Positions 2,552-16,019 of a stretch of DNA of 32,831 nt are shown in pieces; position 1 is the stretch's first letter; each line of letters opens with the position of its first letter. Source of the DNA: Candidatus Deferrimicrobiaceae bacterium. GTDB taxonomy: Bacteria; Desulfobacterota; Deferrimicrobia; Deferrimicrobiales; Deferrimicrobiaceae. Below the pieces are notes generated by a model. The model made no database searches. It was not told the origin of the DNA and saw nothing but the letters and a program-made list of their open reading frames with translations. Location: positions 1 through 32,831 of the forward strand of contig DATEXR010000257.1 in the NCBI GenBank assembly GCA_035256765.1, given 5' to 3'. A program made the translations under genes and the position numbers.

Positions 2552-3457
2552 ATGGACGGAAACATTTCCCGGAACCTCCTCGACATCCTGTTTGAAGGGG
2601 TCTATTTCGTGGACCAGGACAGGAGGGTCACGTACTGGAGCAAGGGGGCGGAACGGATCACCGGCTACCAAGAGCAGGAGGTGCTGGGCCTGCGATGCCG
2701 CGACGGCATCCTGATGCACGTGGACGAGCGGGGGAAGGATGCGTGCGACCGGTCATGCCTGATCGCGGATACGATCCGGGACGGGGGGGAACGCCAGGCC
2801 GAGCTGTACCTGCTCCACAAGGCCGGCCACCGGGTCCCCGTGTCGATCCGCGTCGCGCCGATCGCGGAACCGGGCGGCCGGATCGTCGGCGCGATGGAGG
2901 TGTTCAGCGACAACCTGACGGGGGAGTCGACCGCGCGCCTGATCCAGGACCTGAGGGATATGGCGCTGCTCGACCCGATGACGGAGCTCGGCAACCGGCG
3001 GTACCTGGAGATGCATCTGGAGGCGAGGCTCAAGGAGATGGACCGGTACGGCGGGTCGTTCGGCGTCCTGTTCGCGGACATCGATTTCTTCAAGAACGTG
3101 AACGACACGTTCGGGCACGATGTCGGGGACAGGGTTCTCAAAATGGTCGGGAGAACCTTGCAAAATAGCGTCCGGTCTTTCGATATCGTGGGGAGATGGG
3201 GGGGGGAGGAGTTTCTCGCGGTCATCGCGAACGTGAACGAGGACCACCTGTCCTCCATCGCCCGAAAACTGTGTCATCTGGTGGGGAAATCCAGTTTCAC
3301 GGTGGGAAAGGACACCATCCGCGTCACCGTCTCCATCGGGGCGACGCTCGTTCGGCCGGACGACACGGCGGAAACGCTGGTGAAGAGGGCCGACCGCTTC
3401 CTGTACCGGAGCAAGGCTGCCGGGAGAAACCGGTTCACGATCGGCGGGGACGAGTAG
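2552..3457 (+). CDS. PAS-GGDEF diguanylate cyclase
   Basis: Makes cyclic di-GMP from two GTP. The product is 301 aa and has no membrane segment or signal peptide, so it is cytosolic. A PAS sensor spans about 1-125 and a GGDEF domain about 135-300. The catalytic motif is intact as GGEEF (217-221), and the inhibitory I-site RSFD (208-211) sits five residues before it, so product inhibition is expected. Metal-binding DIDFFK is at 176-181. The PAS carries Cys49, Cys65 and Cys69 near ILMHVDERG, a spacing that could bind a metal or respond to redox; this is inference. The start follows AAGGCGGAG at good distance. The gene stands alone between ftsK and lolA. The only other c-di-GMP gene seen is the HD-GYP protein at 9272. 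Confidence 0.93.
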   Translation: MDGNISRNLLDILFEGVYFVDQDRRVTYWSKGAERITGYQEQEVLGLRCRDGILMHVDERGKDACDRSCLIADTIRDGGERQAELYLLHKAGHRVPVSIRVAPIAEPGGRIVGAMEVFSDNLTGESTARLIQDLRDMALLDPMTELGNRRYLEMHLEARLKEMDRYGGSFGVLFADIDFFKNVNDTFGHDVGDRVLKMVGRTLQNSVRSFDIVGRWGGEEFLAVIANVNEDHLSSIARKLCHLVGKSSFTVGKDTIRVTVSIGATLVRPDDTAETLVKRADRFLYRSKAAGRNRFTIGGDE

Positions 3458-7701: not shown

Positions 7702-8679
7702 ATGGGAGGATCGATCACCGACGTGCCCGGGGTCCTTTTGGGGCACGAGCAGGATCTCATGCGCGGTTCGGGGATCACCGTTCTCCTCTTTCCCCGCGGG
7801 GCGGCGGGGGCCGCCGACATCCGGGGGGAGGCCGCCGGGACGAGGCAGATGGATTCGCTTCTTCGCCCCCATCCGTCGCGTCTCATCCACGGGCTCGTCC
7901 TGGCGGGGGGCAGCGCTTTCGGACTCGACGCGGCGGCGGGGGTGATGCGCCTGCTCGAGGAGCGGGGCGTCGGGTTCCCCACTCCCGCGGGTGTGGTCCC
8001 GATCGTTCCCACGGCGGTCATCTACGACCTGGGGTTCGGGGATCCGACCTTCCGGCCGACTCCGGAAATGGCCTATACTGCCGCGAAAAAAGCATCCGGC
8101 GAGCCGGCGGAGAGCGGATCCGTCGGAGCGGGAGCCGGCGCGACCGTAGGCAAGATTTTCGGGCTGAGCCGCGCGATGAAAGGGGGGTTCGGAACCGCGA
8201 GCGAACGTGCGGGAGGGGCGCTTGTCGGGGCGTGCGCCGTCGTGAACGCCTTCGGGGATGTGATCGACCCCCTCACGGGCGAGTGGCTTGCCGGAGCGCG
8301 TACCGTTGACGGAAAGGAACGGGCGGGGACGGAAGAAGCTTTTCTTGGCGGATACGCGAGGGAGCCGTTCGCCCCGGGGAACACGACGCTTGCCGTCGTC
8401 GCCACTCCCGAGTCTCTCTCGCGGGAGGAACTGATCGGGGTCGCGAGGATGGCGCACGGGGCTCTGTTTCGGGCCATCCGGCCCGTTCACACCCCCATGG
8501 ACGGCGATATCGTAGTGGCCCTGTCCACCGGGGCGGCGGAGCGGAAGGGGAACTTGATGCAGATTGCGGTCCTGGCCGGACGGGCGCTCGAGAAGGCGAT
8601 CACGGACGCTGTGAGGTCCGCTCGGGGGGCGAACGGCCTGCCGGCTGCAGGAGACATGCACAGGAGGGAGAACCCGTGA
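7702..8679 (+). CDS. P1 family (S58, DmpA/NylC-like) self-processing peptidase
   Basis: N-terminal-nucleophile hydrolase of the DmpA/BapA/NylC group, which cleave D-amino acid, beta-amino acid or aminohexanoate amides. The product is 325 aa. It opens with SITDVPGVLLGH, shows HGLVLAGGSAFGLDAA (63-78) and GAGAGATVGK (142-151), and has PGNTTLAVVAT around 225-235. In NylC the autocleavage lies between Asn and Thr; the equivalent here is Asn227/Thr228, so alpha and beta chains of about 227 and 98 residues are expected. No signal peptide is visible. The ATG follows GGAGGGAGG. The stop overlaps the next gene (GTGA). The substrate cannot be told from sequence. Confidence 0.88.
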   Translation: MGGSITDVPGVLLGHEQDLMRGSGITVLLFPRGAAGAADIRGEAAGTRQMDSLLRPHPSRLIHGLVLAGGSAFGLDAAAGVMRLLEERGVGFPTPAGVVPIVPTAVIYDLGFGDPTFRPTPEMAYTAAKKASGEPAESGSVGAGAGATVGKIFGLSRAMKGGFGTASERAGGALVGACAVVNAFGDVIDPLTGEWLAGARTVDGKERAGTEEAFLGGYAREPFAPGNTTLAVVATPESLSREELIGVARMAHGALFRAIRPVHTPMDGDIVVALSTGAAERKGNLMQIAVLAGRALEKAITDAVRSARGANGLPAAGDMHRRENP

Positions 8680-9245
8680 TCGACAGGATCGAGGAGACCC
8701 TCAAGGAAATGCTTTCGGATCCTGCCGTCTCCGTCCGTCTGGCGGCCTCCACCGCTCTCGACAGGATGCGGGCGAAAAGATCGGTCCCCACCTACCTCCA
8801 GATGCTTGCGACCGGCACCCTGGAAGAGCGGGTCCGGATCGTCTTCGCCGCGGAGGAGATCGGCGGTCCGGAAGGGATTTCCCTCCTCCTTGCCGCCTTG
8901 GAGGACAAGGAGGAGGAAGTCCGGGGCGCAGCTGTCCGCAGCCTGGAGTCCGTCCTGGACGAAACCGTCCTGCAGGCGATGATGGCCCGGCTTCCCAGGG
9001 AGCAGGGCGTTGTGCTCGGGAACCTGCTGGAGGCGCTGGGGAAGTCCCGGCAAAGGGAGCTGTCGCCCATGATCGAGCAGTATCTGGAGCATCCGGACGT
9101 CGAGGTGCGCGGGAAGGCGATCCTGGCGTACGCCCGGGTTGCGGAAAAAGCCGGGTGGGAGAAGATCCTCGCGCATACCGGCGAGAACGAGGAAACGATC
9201 AGGGCGGCCGCGGCCCGGGCTCTCGGGGAGTGGAGTTCGGAGTAA
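8676..9245 (+). CDS. Small HEAT-repeat protein
   Basis: The product is 189 aa and almost entirely HEAT-like helix pairs. Repeats are visible as DPAVSVRLAASTALDRM, DKEEEVRGAAVRSLESV, HPDVEVRGKAILAYARV and a final NEETIRAAAARALGEW. It is soluble, with no enzyme motif; it probably acts as a protein-binding scaffold. The GTG start at 8676 overlaps the peptidase stop by 4 nt and has AGGAGGGAG upstream, so the two are co-translated and may work together. This is inferred from coupling only. It is convergent with the HD-GYP gene, which neighbours a second, larger HEAT protein. Confidence 0.82.
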   Translation: MIDRIEETLKEMLSDPAVSVRLAASTALDRMRAKRSVPTYLQMLATGTLEERVRIVFAAEEIGGPEGISLLLAALEDKEEEVRGAAVRSLESVLDETVLQAMMARLPREQGVVLGNLLEALGKSRQRELSPMIEQYLEHPDVEVRGKAILAYARVAEKAGWEKILAHTGENEETIRAAAARALGEWSSE

Positions 9246-9275
9246 CGTCGCGGGGCGTCCCGCCCCCTTCGTTAC
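9242..9275. terminator. Two-way hairpin between convergent genes
   Basis: GTAACG (9242-9247) pairs with CGTTAC (9270-9275), and inside it GGGGCG (9252-9257) pairs with CGCCCC (9261-9266) around a 3-nt loop. The hairpin contains the stop codons of both convergent genes. It lacks a long T-tract, so termination strength is uncertain. Confidence 0.45.
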
Positions 9276-10660
9276 GGGTTGTTCGCCGTGACGGACACCC
9301 CTCGGTGCGCGTCCGGGTACAGGAGAGGGTTGACGGTGCCCAGGATCGACCAGCGGGGGCGGCTGGTCTTCGGGTCGATCTCGCCCAGATCCACTTCCTC
9401 CGGGTGCGGAAGCCGGTTTCCCTGCCGGTCGATGAGGATCGTGATCCTGATCTGCCCTTCCCCGCCAGGTCCGACGCCGGTGACAACCCCCACCTCCATG
9501 CTGTCCAGGCGCACCATCGTTCCGATCGGGAAGCTTCCCATCACGCTTTTCAGCACCGCAAGGATGTTCGGGTCGAGCGACTTCCCCGCAAGCTTCTGCA
9601 TGATGTCGAGCGCTTCGATCGGCTGCTTCGCCATCTGGTAGGCGCGCATCGTCGTAAGGGCGTCGTAGCAGTCCGCCACGGAGATGATCTGCGAATTCGG
9701 GTGCAGGACGTAATCCGAGCCCAGACTCGGATATCCGTTCCTGTCGTACCGGACGTGGTGTTCCCGGACCATGACGGCGGAGGTGGGGCGGATGTGGGAC
9801 ATTTTCCCCAGATAGAGGAATCCCTCCTCGGGGTGCTTCTTGATCTCCTCGAACTCCGCTGCGGTGAGACTCCCCGGCTTCCGGATCAGGTCCAGGGCGA
9901 GCTGGGTTTTCCCCACGTCGTGGAGAAGTCCGGCCACCCCGACCTCGGTCTTCTCCTGGAGGGAGAGGGAGAGCGCATCCGCCATGGAGAGCGCGAGCAC
10001 GGCCACGTTGACGGAGTGGTTGTACGTGTATTCGTCGAAATTCTTGATCAGGGTCAGGGCCATGATGGCATCGCGGTTCCGCTGGAGCATGCCGCTGATG
10101 TCTTTCACCACTCGTTCCGACTCGGCTCCCGAGGGGATTTTGCCCAGGCGGATATCCTGCAGCACCGTAACCACGGCATGGACCGCGTTGTTGTAGATCT
10201 CCCGTGCGAGGGTGTGGTCGTCCTCCTCTTCCTCTTCCGGGGGTTTTACCCGGATGTGGCCGACTCCCAGGGCCTCGATCCGCTTCTGGATGTCGGAGAC
10301 AGAGAGCCGCTCCTCTTTCGTCTCGTGGAGGAAGCGGATGAAGCGATCGATGTCGTCGGGGGAAAGCCCCTTTTCGAACACGATCGCCGGGATCCCGATG
10401 GCGGCAAGCCGCTCCATGAAAAAATCCAGGGAGGAGGTCAGGTTGAATATGGGGACCCCCTCGAACACCAGGGTGTCGTCCGAGATGGCCAGGGCGAGTT
10501 CCGGCTGTTTCGCGAAGAAAGGAAGGATCTCCGAGAAGCATTTATCCACCGGGGTGCGCACCAGGGGGTGCGTGGGGGGGTACAGCTTCCGGTTCTTCAG
10601 GGAGGCTCCCAGAGAGCGGATGATACTCACGATGGACTGTTCTTGCTGCCGCCGTTCCAT
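9272..10660 (-). CDS. HD-GYP protein with N-terminal YPPxHP module
   Basis: Predicted c-di-GMP phosphodiesterase. The product is 462 aa. Residues 1-140 form a domain with YPPTHP at 27-32 that also appears in the next gene. An acidic run (141-148) links it to the HD-GYP domain (about 150-375). The metal ligands look complete: His215 in HxxN, HD at 247-248 with Lys251, His276, HH at 301-302, GYP at 309-311 and Asp330. The last 80 residues form an extra beta-rich tail (MVRLDSMEVGVVTGVG). No membrane helix is seen. It is probably co-transcribed with the HEAT gene upstream (12 bp gap). The sensory input is unknown; the N-terminal module is the likely sensor or docking part. Confidence 0.9.
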   Translation of the reverse strand: MERRQQEQSIVSIIRSLGASLKNRKLYPPTHPLVRTPVDKCFSEILPFFAKQPELALAISDDTLVFEGVPIFNLTSSLDFFMERLAAIGIPAIVFEKGLSPDDIDRFIRFLHETKEERLSVSDIQKRIEALGVGHIRVKPPEEEEEDDHTLAREIYNNAVHAVVTVLQDIRLGKIPSGAESERVVKDISGMLQRNRDAIMALTLIKNFDEYTYNHSVNVAVLALSMADALSLSLQEKTEVGVAGLLHDVGKTQLALDLIRKPGSLTAAEFEEIKKHPEEGFLYLGKMSHIRPTSAVMVREHHVRYDRNGYPSLGSDYVLHPNSQIISVADCYDALTTMRAYQMAKQPIEALDIMQKLAGKSLDPNILAVLKSVMGSFPIGTMVRLDSMEVGVVTGVGPGGEGQIRITILIDRQGNRLPHPEEVDLGEIDPKTSRPRWSILGTVNPLLYPDAHRGVSVTANNP

Positions 10661-10672
10661 GATCCTGCTCCT

Positions 10673-12244
10673 TTACCAGCCCGTTTTTATAAGAATCCGT
10701 TCCGTTTCCAGCCGGAGATACAGCTCGGGCGCCCTCCGTGTCCGAAGGACGATCTCCCTCGGGCGGTTTCCCGACATTCGTGAGATGCTGCGCAGCGCGT
10801 GTTTCTTCATTTCCCGGAATTTTGGCGTTTCCCAGATCACGGAGGCGCGCAGGATCTGCTCGAGCGCTGTGATCGCCCCGTCGGTGTCGATGGACCGCAG
10901 GGAGTCGATCGCCTCGTGGGCCAGCCGGTAGTGCGGGTAGAGCACGTTTTTATGGACGGCCCTCTGGTAAAGAGCCATGACCGCCTCCTCCTCCTTCTTC
11001 AGGGAGAGGACGGCGGTGGCCGTGAGGGCGATCGTCTCCTCGGGGAAGAAGCACAGTTCCCCGAGGGCCTTCACCGCGGCGGGGTGCGGCAGCTTGGACA
11101 GCCCCTTGATCGCCTCTTTCTTCACCCGGAGGTCCGGGTGGGACAGCGTCGTTACGATTTCCGGCGCGAGTTCCGGTATCCCGAGGTTCCCGAGGATCGT
11201 GACCATGTTGCGGACGACGTACCAGCGGGAATCGTTCAGGTTGTCGAGGATGGCGGGGACCGCGGGGTGCCCGATCATGACGATGATGTCGACGATCGTT
11301 TTCCGGACGAGGAGATCCTCCTCGACGGCCAGGGCGGAGATCAAGGCCTTCACGGCGCGTTCGCCGAACGCCATGAGGACCGTCTCCACTTCCTTCCGGT
11401 TCTTTACCCCCCCGTCTTTCAGGCGCCGGATATAATGAGCCACCAGGTCGTCGGAGACGAGCTCCTTGATCCCCATCGCCGCGAACTTGGCGATTTCCGG
11501 GTTCTCCATCGGCGGCGTTTCGATGTGCACCGTGTAGATCGCGATCGCGCGACCGGAATATTCGATGCGCCGGTCCTCGTTCTCCTGGATCAGGGCGCGG
11601 GTCAGGGAGATGACGATGTCGCGGTATCCGGGGGCGTCCGTCTCCTTTTCCAGTCTCCGGAGAAGTTCCTCGACCGTCAAATCCTCCAACGGGGAGGGGT
11701 CCTCCAGGGCCGTGGAGAGATCGGTGGTTTTCAACTCCTCGACCTCCTCCGGCGGAGGCTTTTCCTCTTGCTTCTTGATCAGTTCGGTGAGCCCGTCGTA
11801 GTCGACGCGGTTCACCCAGATTTGGGACACCCCCTCGCGGAGAAGGACCTTCTCCAGACCGCCCTCGTCCTGCAGTTCCTGGATGTCGCGGTTCAGGGTG
11901 GTAAGAAAGGCGATCATCTCGTCCGGCTTCTGGTGGGGCAGGAGAATGATCTTGCTTGCCCGCCGGTAATACAGCTCGCGGTTCAGGTCCGCGATCGCCT
12001 TGTAGTTCGTGGGGAGGGCTTCCTCTTGGTAAAGGAGGTTGTTCTTGGTCACCTCGATCTCGATGCCGGTTTCGGGGGGAGGGATATCCTCGATCGAGGA
12101 GAGGATCTTCCAGACCACCTGGCTGAGAGCGGGGTGGCCGGGGGGATAGAAACCGAAGGCCTTTATCCCTTTCGCAAGTTCGTTTACTGCCAATAGGACT
12201 TTTTGCCGCGTTGCTTCCAGTGTTGGATCCGGCTTCCGTTCCAT
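10673..12244 (-). CDS. HEAT-repeat protein with N-terminal YPPxHP module
   Basis: The product is 523 aa from the ATG at 12244. Residues 1-150 match the layout of the neighbouring HD-GYP protein's N-terminus: a helix, YPPGHP at 33-38, a strand with LLYQEEALP, then LNRELYYRRASKIILLP and PDEMIAFL. After an acidic linker come about six HEAT-like repeats (about 270-470), for example AVPAILDNLNDSRWYVVRNMV and HPDLRVKKEAIKGLSKL. No catalytic motif is seen; it is probably a scaffold or adaptor for the HD-GYP enzyme. The frame is open to a TTG at 12280, but that lies at the predicted transcription start. No Shine-Dalgarno precedes 12244. The function is unknown; the pairing with HD-GYP suggests c-di-GMP signalling. 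Confidence 0.82.
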   Translation of the reverse strand: MERKPDPTLEATRQKVLLAVNELAKGIKAFGFYPPGHPALSQVVWKILSSIEDIPPPETGIEIEVTKNNLLYQEEALPTNYKAIADLNRELYYRRASKIILLPHQKPDEMIAFLTTLNRDIQELQDEGGLEKVLLREGVSQIWVNRVDYDGLTELIKKQEEKPPPEEVEELKTTDLSTALEDPSPLEDLTVEELLRRLEKETDAPGYRDIVISLTRALIQENEDRRIEYSGRAIAIYTVHIETPPMENPEIAKFAAMGIKELVSDDLVAHYIRRLKDGGVKNRKEVETVLMAFGERAVKALISALAVEEDLLVRKTIVDIIVMIGHPAVPAILDNLNDSRWYVVRNMVTILGNLGIPELAPEIVTTLSHPDLRVKKEAIKGLSKLPHPAAVKALGELCFFPEETIALTATAVLSLKKEEEAVMALYQRAVHKNVLYPHYRLAHEAIDSLRSIDTDGAITALEQILRASVIWETPKFREMKKHALRSISRMSGNRPREIVLRTRRAPELYLRLETERILIKTGW

Positions 12245-12287
12245 TACAGGAAATGTAGTTTTATTTATTTGAAAAATCAACTAATTG

Positions 12288-14888: not shown

Positions 14889-16019
14889 TTGGAACTCGAT
14901 GAGATTCTCAAGGCCGGGGTCAAGAACGCGGCATCCGACATCCACCTGAAGGTGGGACTCCCTCCCATCCTGCGGATCAACGGAAAGCTCGTGCCTCTCA
15001 AGGTGCCGCAGCCTCTCCGCCCCGAGGATGTGGAGGCGATCTGCGGCAAGGTTCTCATCACCGAGGACCAGCAGCAGAGGTTCGAAAAAAACCACGAGGT
15101 CGATTGCTCCTACAGCGTGCCGGGGTTGGGTCGGTTTCGCATCAACGTGTTCCTGCAGCGCAGCACGGTGGGGGTCGCCATCCGGGTCATCCCGATCGGT
15201 CTCCTCTCGTTCGAGTCGCTTCATCTGCCGAAAGTGATCGAAAAGATAGCCTTGGAAACGAGGGGCCTCATTTTATGCACCGGGACCACGGGAAGCGGGA
15301 AGTCGACGACCCTGGCCGCGATCGTGGAATACATCAATCACCACCGAAGCTGCCATGTGATCATGATCGAGGACCCGATCGAATTCCTTCTCCGCGACAG
15401 GAAGAGCATCATCAACCAGCGGGAGATCGGGGTGGACACCACCAACTTCACCGTGGCTCTCAAGAGCGCTCTCCGCCAGGACCCGGACGTGATTCTCGTG
15501 GGCGAGATGCGCGACTTCGAGACGATCGAGACGGCGATCATGGCGGCCGAGACGGGGCACCTCGTGTTGTCGACGCTCCACACCCTCGACGCGGCGGAGA
15601 CGATCAACCGGATCATCGGCGTTTTCCCGCCCTACCAGCACAAGCAGGTCAGGATCCAGCTGTCCTCGGTGCTGAAGGGGGTCATTTCCCAGCGTCTCGT
15701 GCCCCGCGCGGACGGCGCGGGTCGCGTCCCGGCGATCGAGGTGCTGATCAACACGACGCGCGTCCGGGAATACATCGAGGACAAGGACAAGACGCGCAAG
15801 ATCCGGGATGCGATCGCCCAGGGGTACACCACCTACGGGATGCAGACATTCGACCAGTCCCTCATGTCGCTCTACAAGGAGAACCTGATCTCCCTCGAGG
15901 AGGCGCTCCGGCAGGCATCCAACCCCGACGACTTCGCCCTCCGCGTCCGCGGGATTTCCTCGACCTCCGATCTCACGTGGGAAGAGTTTGAAAAGGACGA
16001 GGCGCCCCCGAAGGCCTGA
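14889..16019 (+). CDS. pilT: Type IV pilus retraction ATPase PilT
   Basis: Hexameric motor that depolymerises type IV pili for twitching. The product is 376 aa. Walker A GTTGSGKST is at 132-140, the Asp box is in IMIEDPIEF, Walker B is in LVGEMRDFET, and the His box is in TGHLVLSTLHT. The C-terminal AIRNLIREG motif of classical PilT appears as KIRDAIAQG, a conservative change. The TTG start begins directly after the recA stop, with GAAGGGAAGG in the end of recA. No other pilus gene is in the window, so pilT is travelling with recA here, an order I recall from Geobacter-type genomes. Confidence 0.93.
   Translation: MELDEILKAGVKNAASDIHLKVGLPPILRINGKLVPLKVPQPLRPEDVEAICGKVLITEDQQQRFEKNHEVDCSYSVPGLGRFRINVFLQRSTVGVAIRVIPIGLLSFESLHLPKVIEKIALETRGLILCTGTTGSGKSTTLAAIVEYINHHRSCHVIMIEDPIEFLLRDRKSIINQREIGVDTTNFTVALKSALRQDPDVILVGEMRDFETIETAIMAAETGHLVLSTLHTLDAAETINRIIGVFPPYQHKQVRIQLSSVLKGVISQRLVPRADGAGRVPAIEVLINTTRVREYIEDKDKTRKIRDAIAQGYTTYGMQTFDQSLMSLYKENLISLEEALRQASNPDDFALRVRGISSTSDLTWEEFEKDEAPPKA

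Follow-up and report, generated by a model that had tools for sequence, protein, structure and literature searches.

A conserved pair of HEAT-repeat and HD-GYP genes shares an N-terminal module, pointing to an undescribed signalling system

Two adjacent genes of a Candidatus Deferrimicrobiaceae bacterium, one encoding a HEAT-repeat protein and the other an HD-GYP protein, begin with homologous N-terminal regions of about 135 residues, and the pair recurs in the same order in dozens of genera within a single phylum of bacteria. This conserved gene pair is pointing to an undescribed signalling system. Both genes are carried by the minus strand of the window, that is, the whole stretch of 32,831 nucleotides that was analyzed. 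The HEAT gene (10673..12244) comes first and encodes a protein of 523 residues from an ATG at 12244; its open frame extends past this ATG up to a TTG at 12280, and the start is supported by an orthologue (locus L062) that begins at roughly the same site. The HD-GYP gene (9272..10660) starts 12 bases after the end of the HEAT gene. Its product of 462 residues, which has orthologues in the phylum, consists of the N-terminal module, a linker helix, the HD-GYP domain and a short C-terminal domain.

Downstream of the module, the HEAT protein contains four stretches matching Pfam HEAT_2 (E 3.1e-18; 66.3 bits for a cut-off of 27.7), the best-scoring of which lies at 11051..11257 on the minus strand (residues 342-410 of the 535-residue frame). 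All matches of this protein to curated NCBIfam models were far under their cut-offs and confined to the repeats. In another genome of the same genus (G127), the HEAT gene is found in two frames of 294 and 238 residues (L068, 6588-8149), probably owing to a frameshift or an assembly error.

The modules of the HD-GYP and HEAT proteins, hereafter A and B, are located on the minus strand at 10217..10660 (profile match 145 bits, E 1.7e-42) and 11774..12214 (140.5 bits, E 5.3e-41), respectively. The sequence-only reading had claimed that both N-termini display common motifs in the same order, and all of these motifs were found in the sequence as quoted: YPPTHP at residues 27-32 of the HD-GYP protein and YPPGHP at residues 33-38 of the HEAT protein, followed by FEGVP and YQEEALP, then AIVFEKGLSPDDIDRFI and KIILLPHQKPDEMIAFL, and finally GVGHIRV and GVSQIWVN. 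The tyrosine of the first motif is the most conserved residue of the module, being present in 73/76 sequences of the HD-GYP type (Y27) and 64/65 of the HEAT type, and the strict YPxxHP pattern is observed in 37/76 and 34/67 of them, respectively. Comparison with hhalign of the two N-terminal profiles, built from 76 and 67 sequences, gave a probability of 99.85 and an E-value of 1.4e-30 over 134 aligned columns, and a repeat using different alignments of the same families gave a probability of 99.76. One could argue that this likeness is convergent or compositional and does not reflect a common domain, since the YPxxHP motif is short and the direct identity of the two N-termini is just 23% over 133 residues (BLASTP, E 2e-5). 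Against this, the hhalign probability never exceeded 1.26 among 100 column shuffles and was 0.37 with the reversed profile; single-sequence queries cross over in other genomes, from the HD-GYP protein to HEAT proteins and from the HEAT protein to HD-GYP proteins, with E-values down to 4e-9; and the structural elements follow one another in the same order in both models. On these grounds, we regard convergence as refuted.

AlphaFold models of the two modules were obtained with a mean pLDDT of 86 for the HD-GYP type (70 sequences) and 92 for the HEAT type (67 sequences). The folds agree, both having the order alpha-alpha-beta-beta-alpha-beta-alpha-alpha-beta with slight differences in the short elements. 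Of the two outcomes that the sequence-only reading had named as refuting, differing folds and a missing reciprocal profile hit, neither was thus observed. In both models, the Y-P-x-x-H-P loop connects two long helices, 1 and 2, which are followed by two to three short strands, a helix, a strand, at least two short helices, a further strand and the start of the linker helix. Foldseek searches of the PDB with both models returned zero matches at E < 0.001 (best E 0.44 and 0.63), and TM was < 0.3 on the query among the matches listed. Nothing significant was obtained among the viral structures of BFVD with the module of the HEAT gene. Sequence matches to PDB entries (Octarellin V.1, a cytochrome c555 trimer and BCL6) were short or weak and were taken as chance. 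Likewise, Pfam and NCBIfam gave zero matches in either N-terminus of the window pair, and when 66 module sequences were searched, each family of these libraries matched at most one member at E 0.1. Sequence and fold searches did not relate the module to GAF, PAS or other known sensor families either. The earlier proposal of a domain without a name thus agrees with the absence of Pfam and NCBIfam models among these 66 members.

We analyzed loci picked for holding a relative of either protein and obtained 89 pairs. In 89/89 of them, the HEAT gene is upstream and the HD-GYP gene downstream on the same strand, and the two genes mostly overlap or nearly touch. The pairing rate is biased upward because the loci were chosen for a relative, whereas order and strand were not selected. 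The module is present in 119/296 genomes sampled evenly across the phylum at a completeness of at least 90. In the family of the window, it is found in 24/24 genomes with 40 pairs, and the only unpaired copies are two contig-end fragments (in G000 and G127). A genome harbors one to three pairs, and a scan of genome contigs revealed a close relative in Deltaproteobacteria bacterium CSP1-8. When 197 modules were placed on a tree, two changes sufficed for the HEAT label and three for the HD-GYP label, compared with 64.8 changes after shuffling. The A and B modules thus form separate branches without late swapping, which indicates that the duplication of the module is old, and the deep resolution of the tree is poor. 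Altogether, the profile homology and the separate branches bear out the earlier claim of a duplicated domain.

A candidate natural fusion of the two genes (L142, genome G203, contig C82), in a frame of 1062 residues, was rejected as its HEAT part lies in another frame (a 500-residue ORF at 844-2346); the long frame resembles a read-through caused by a frameshift, in DNA rich in G+C. L124 holds a comparable long frame, which was discarded because its HEAT part is again out of frame. The one match examined outside the phylum, an HD-GYP protein from a Caballeronia plasmid whose match begins at module residue 82, does not possess the module. Plasmid HD-GYP proteins of Pseudomonas, Aeromonas, Klebsiella, Serratia and Vibrio are 30% identical to residues 146-448 of the HD-GYP protein of the window and do not contain the module region.

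A third gene (8676..9245, plus strand) encodes an all-HEAT protein of 189 residues (HEAT_2, 1.5e-19) and is a probable associated component of the pair. It faces the HD-GYP gene tail-to-tail, the two stop codons being 26 bases apart. Such a small all-HEAT gene is the most recurrent and most widespread neighbor of the pair. A homologue convergent with the HD-GYP gene is observed in 26/83 pairs overall and in 23/35 pairs of the compact class (HEAT protein of 470-570 residues, HD-GYP protein of 430-490 residues, over 700 bases available downstream); it is never co-directional, and the ends of the two genes frequently overlap. The tail-to-tail arrangement with the HD-GYP gene is maintained in many families, and a conserved convergent layout of this kind is unusual and may reflect co-function or an antisense or terminator coupling. 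The genome of the window contains 10 GGDEF matches and one PilZ protein. One of the GGDEF matches lies in the window as a diguanylate cyclase gene (2552-3457, plus strand) about 6 kb from the pair, and on the opposite flank a PilT-ATPase-like gene (14889-16019, plus strand) follows recA.

The HD-GYP catalytic domain (9563..10051, minus strand; Pfam HD_5, E 1.5e-22, residues 204-366) displays the metal ligands H215, H247, D248, H276, H301, H302 and D330 and the GYP motif at residues 309-311. By alignment, these ligands and the lysine of the HD motif correspond to H189, H212, D213, K216, H250, H276, H277 and D305 of PmGH. All seven ligands, together with the lysine of the HD motif and the GYP motif, are retained in the HD-GYP proteins of 89/89 pairs, and the position of PmGH E185 is occupied by a tyrosine in 88/89. 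We read this as a binuclear metal site without the third-metal glutamate of the E185 type. This glutamate is a trait of the trinuclear PmGH-like subgroup and does not define the whole HD-GYP family. Since all ligands and the GYP motif are kept, the HD-GYP member is predicted to be an active binuclear phosphodiesterase. The predicted substrate would be c-di-GMP or 3',3'-cGAMP, between which the sequence does not discriminate; Geobacter is known to use cGAMP as a signal (PMC6456294). In the model, the linker helix that follows the module spans residues 148-164, with low confidence at 145-159. A second HD-GYP copy is present in the genome of the window, cut off at the start of contig C89.

The module is also found in other architectures. 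Two histidine kinases start with it (L163, PAS-HisKA-HATPase, and L173, HisKA-HATPase), and the latter kinase is followed, in L183, by a gene encoding a receiver-like protein of 125 residues. Four proteins of family f15 (L136, L164, L165 and L166) are organized as module-HEAT-cNMP_binding-PilZ and are the sole module copy found in their genomes. The module is internal in an AAA-module-HEAT protein (L167), and tandem modules lie between AAA_16 and HEAT repeats at L159 (2550-6893, minus strand), where a GGDEF domain stands N-terminal to the AAA domain, and at L160 (2539-6000, minus strand), which is cut at the end of the locus. Module proteins of 544-742 residues without any Pfam domain were noted at L172, L175, L176, L177 and L162, and together they form a single branch beside the kinases. 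Partnerless module-HEAT proteins exist without a neighboring HD-GYP gene, and two related solo module-HD-GYP proteins (L170/L180 and L171/L181) have no HEAT or module protein in the stretch read. The latter are encoded downstream of genes that, by inspection of their sequence, we presume to be glutamate synthase components. The existence of both kinds of solo protein indicates that the module can do without an adjacent partner. Given this range, we infer that the module, about 135 residues long, serves broadly as a cytosolic domain for input or dimerisation, with the HEAT and HD-GYP operon as its main setting. Describing the genes as a two-protein signalling pair, as had been done previously, therefore remains apt for the gene organization, borne out by the fixed order of the neighbors in every pair, and is incomplete in view of the frequent third HEAT gene, the other signalling proteins and the partnerless copies.

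How could two proteins with the same head work together? The likeliest mechanism, as we infer it, is that the module brings the HEAT protein and the phosphodiesterase together. An ancient duplication would have given two versions of an undescribed input or dimerisation domain. One version heads a HEAT-repeat adaptor and the other a predicted phosphodiesterase of the HD-GYP kind, within a two-gene operon of fixed order, HEAT first, which is often accompanied by the small convergent HEAT gene. Module A would contact module B, and the HEAT protein would hold or position the phosphodiesterase at a target. The breakdown of c-di-GMP or 3',3'-cGAMP would be set by the state of the two modules, which the linker helix would relay to the HD-GYP domain. 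As a whole, we would give this scheme about an even chance. The contact between modules, the regulation of the enzyme, its substrate and any ligand are putative parts of it. A domain that would work in twos is supported by the consistent pairing of the genes, by modules that are not swapped and by tandem copies within a single chain.

On the other hand, the module could be a ligand-binding sensor, both proteins responding to a common small-molecule or redox signal with no contact between them. This is a possibility we consider only tentatively. The module occupies a sensor position, including the N-termini of histidine kinases, one of which stands beside a receiver-like gene; the loop that connects its helices 1 and 2 carries a conserved Y..(H/N) motif; and the solo copies, like the kinase fusions, also support a sensory role. 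However, a sensor alone leaves the unbroken one-to-one pairing and order of the 89 pairs and the tandem modules unexplained, no pocket or ligand is known, and a fold match is absent. The contact and sensory readings are compatible, and an operon can stay conserved even when its products do not touch. A bolder and rather unlikely extension would be that the module is a new small-molecule-sensing fold and an obligate two-module unit, linking cyclases (GGDEF-AAA-module-module-HEAT), adaptors (module-HEAT, with PilZ in one lineage) and phosphodiesterases (module-HD-GYP) in one phylum-wide, scaffold-based cyclic-dinucleotide system. One would also wonder whether the HD-GYP protein, instead of acting as an enzyme, serves as a receptor of c-di-GMP and signals via its HEAT partner, as the HD-GYP domain of DvhD from Desulfovibrio vulgaris serves as a c-di-GMP sensor (PMC13090378). 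We find this improbable, as invariant ligands, lysine and GYP motif are what one would expect if selection maintained an enzyme. Finally, a plain tandem duplication with inherited order could by itself yield neighbors that are functionally unlinked, and the two modules are indeed deep paralogues on the tree; yet both members and their order are kept despite several pairs per genome and different flanking genes among lineages, which makes this explanation very unlikely.

A parallel can be drawn with PmGH (GAF-HD-GYP, PDB 4MCW) and DvhD (PAS-HD-GYP), which likewise have a sensor-like N-terminal domain, a linker helix and the binuclear ligands. Unlike in these proteins, the N-terminal domain of the window protein is neither GAF nor PAS, a tyrosine almost always replaces E185, and the HD-GYP protein has a paired HEAT partner with the same domain. 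The HD-GYP domains of PmGH and DvhD form dimers, and a helical stalk links PAS to HD-GYP in DvhD (PMC13090378); the helix that follows the window module is found at the same place as this stalk. The DUF3391 proteins (PF11871) also carry an uncharacterised domain ahead of HD-GYP, and the window protein scores 12.9 bits with this family for a cut-off of 27.8 (E 0.16), over residues 140-174, in the linker and outside the module. Stand-alone bacterial HEAT proteins (PBS-lyase HEAT, TIGR02270, NblB-like) have HEAT_2 repeats in common with the window protein, and their models do not cover the module. As for PilZ effectors, the f15 proteins end in cNMP_binding and PilZ domains, whereas the HEAT protein of the window has no PilZ. 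Thus, an HD-GYP protein with an N-terminal regulatory domain is of a known kind, and it is the module that matches neither a family model nor a known fold in the libraries examined. In the literature searched, no paper describing the HEAT and HD-GYP pair was found, and in the co-mentions examined the two terms were unrelated.

HD-GYP enzymes are common, yet their switches and sites of action are mostly obscure. A module present in about 40% of the sampled genomes of a phylum, with a fixed HEAT partner, offers a testable case of scaffold-directed breakdown of cyclic dinucleotides. Many proteins annotated as hypothetical HEAT protein or HD domain protein could then be named as parts of one system.
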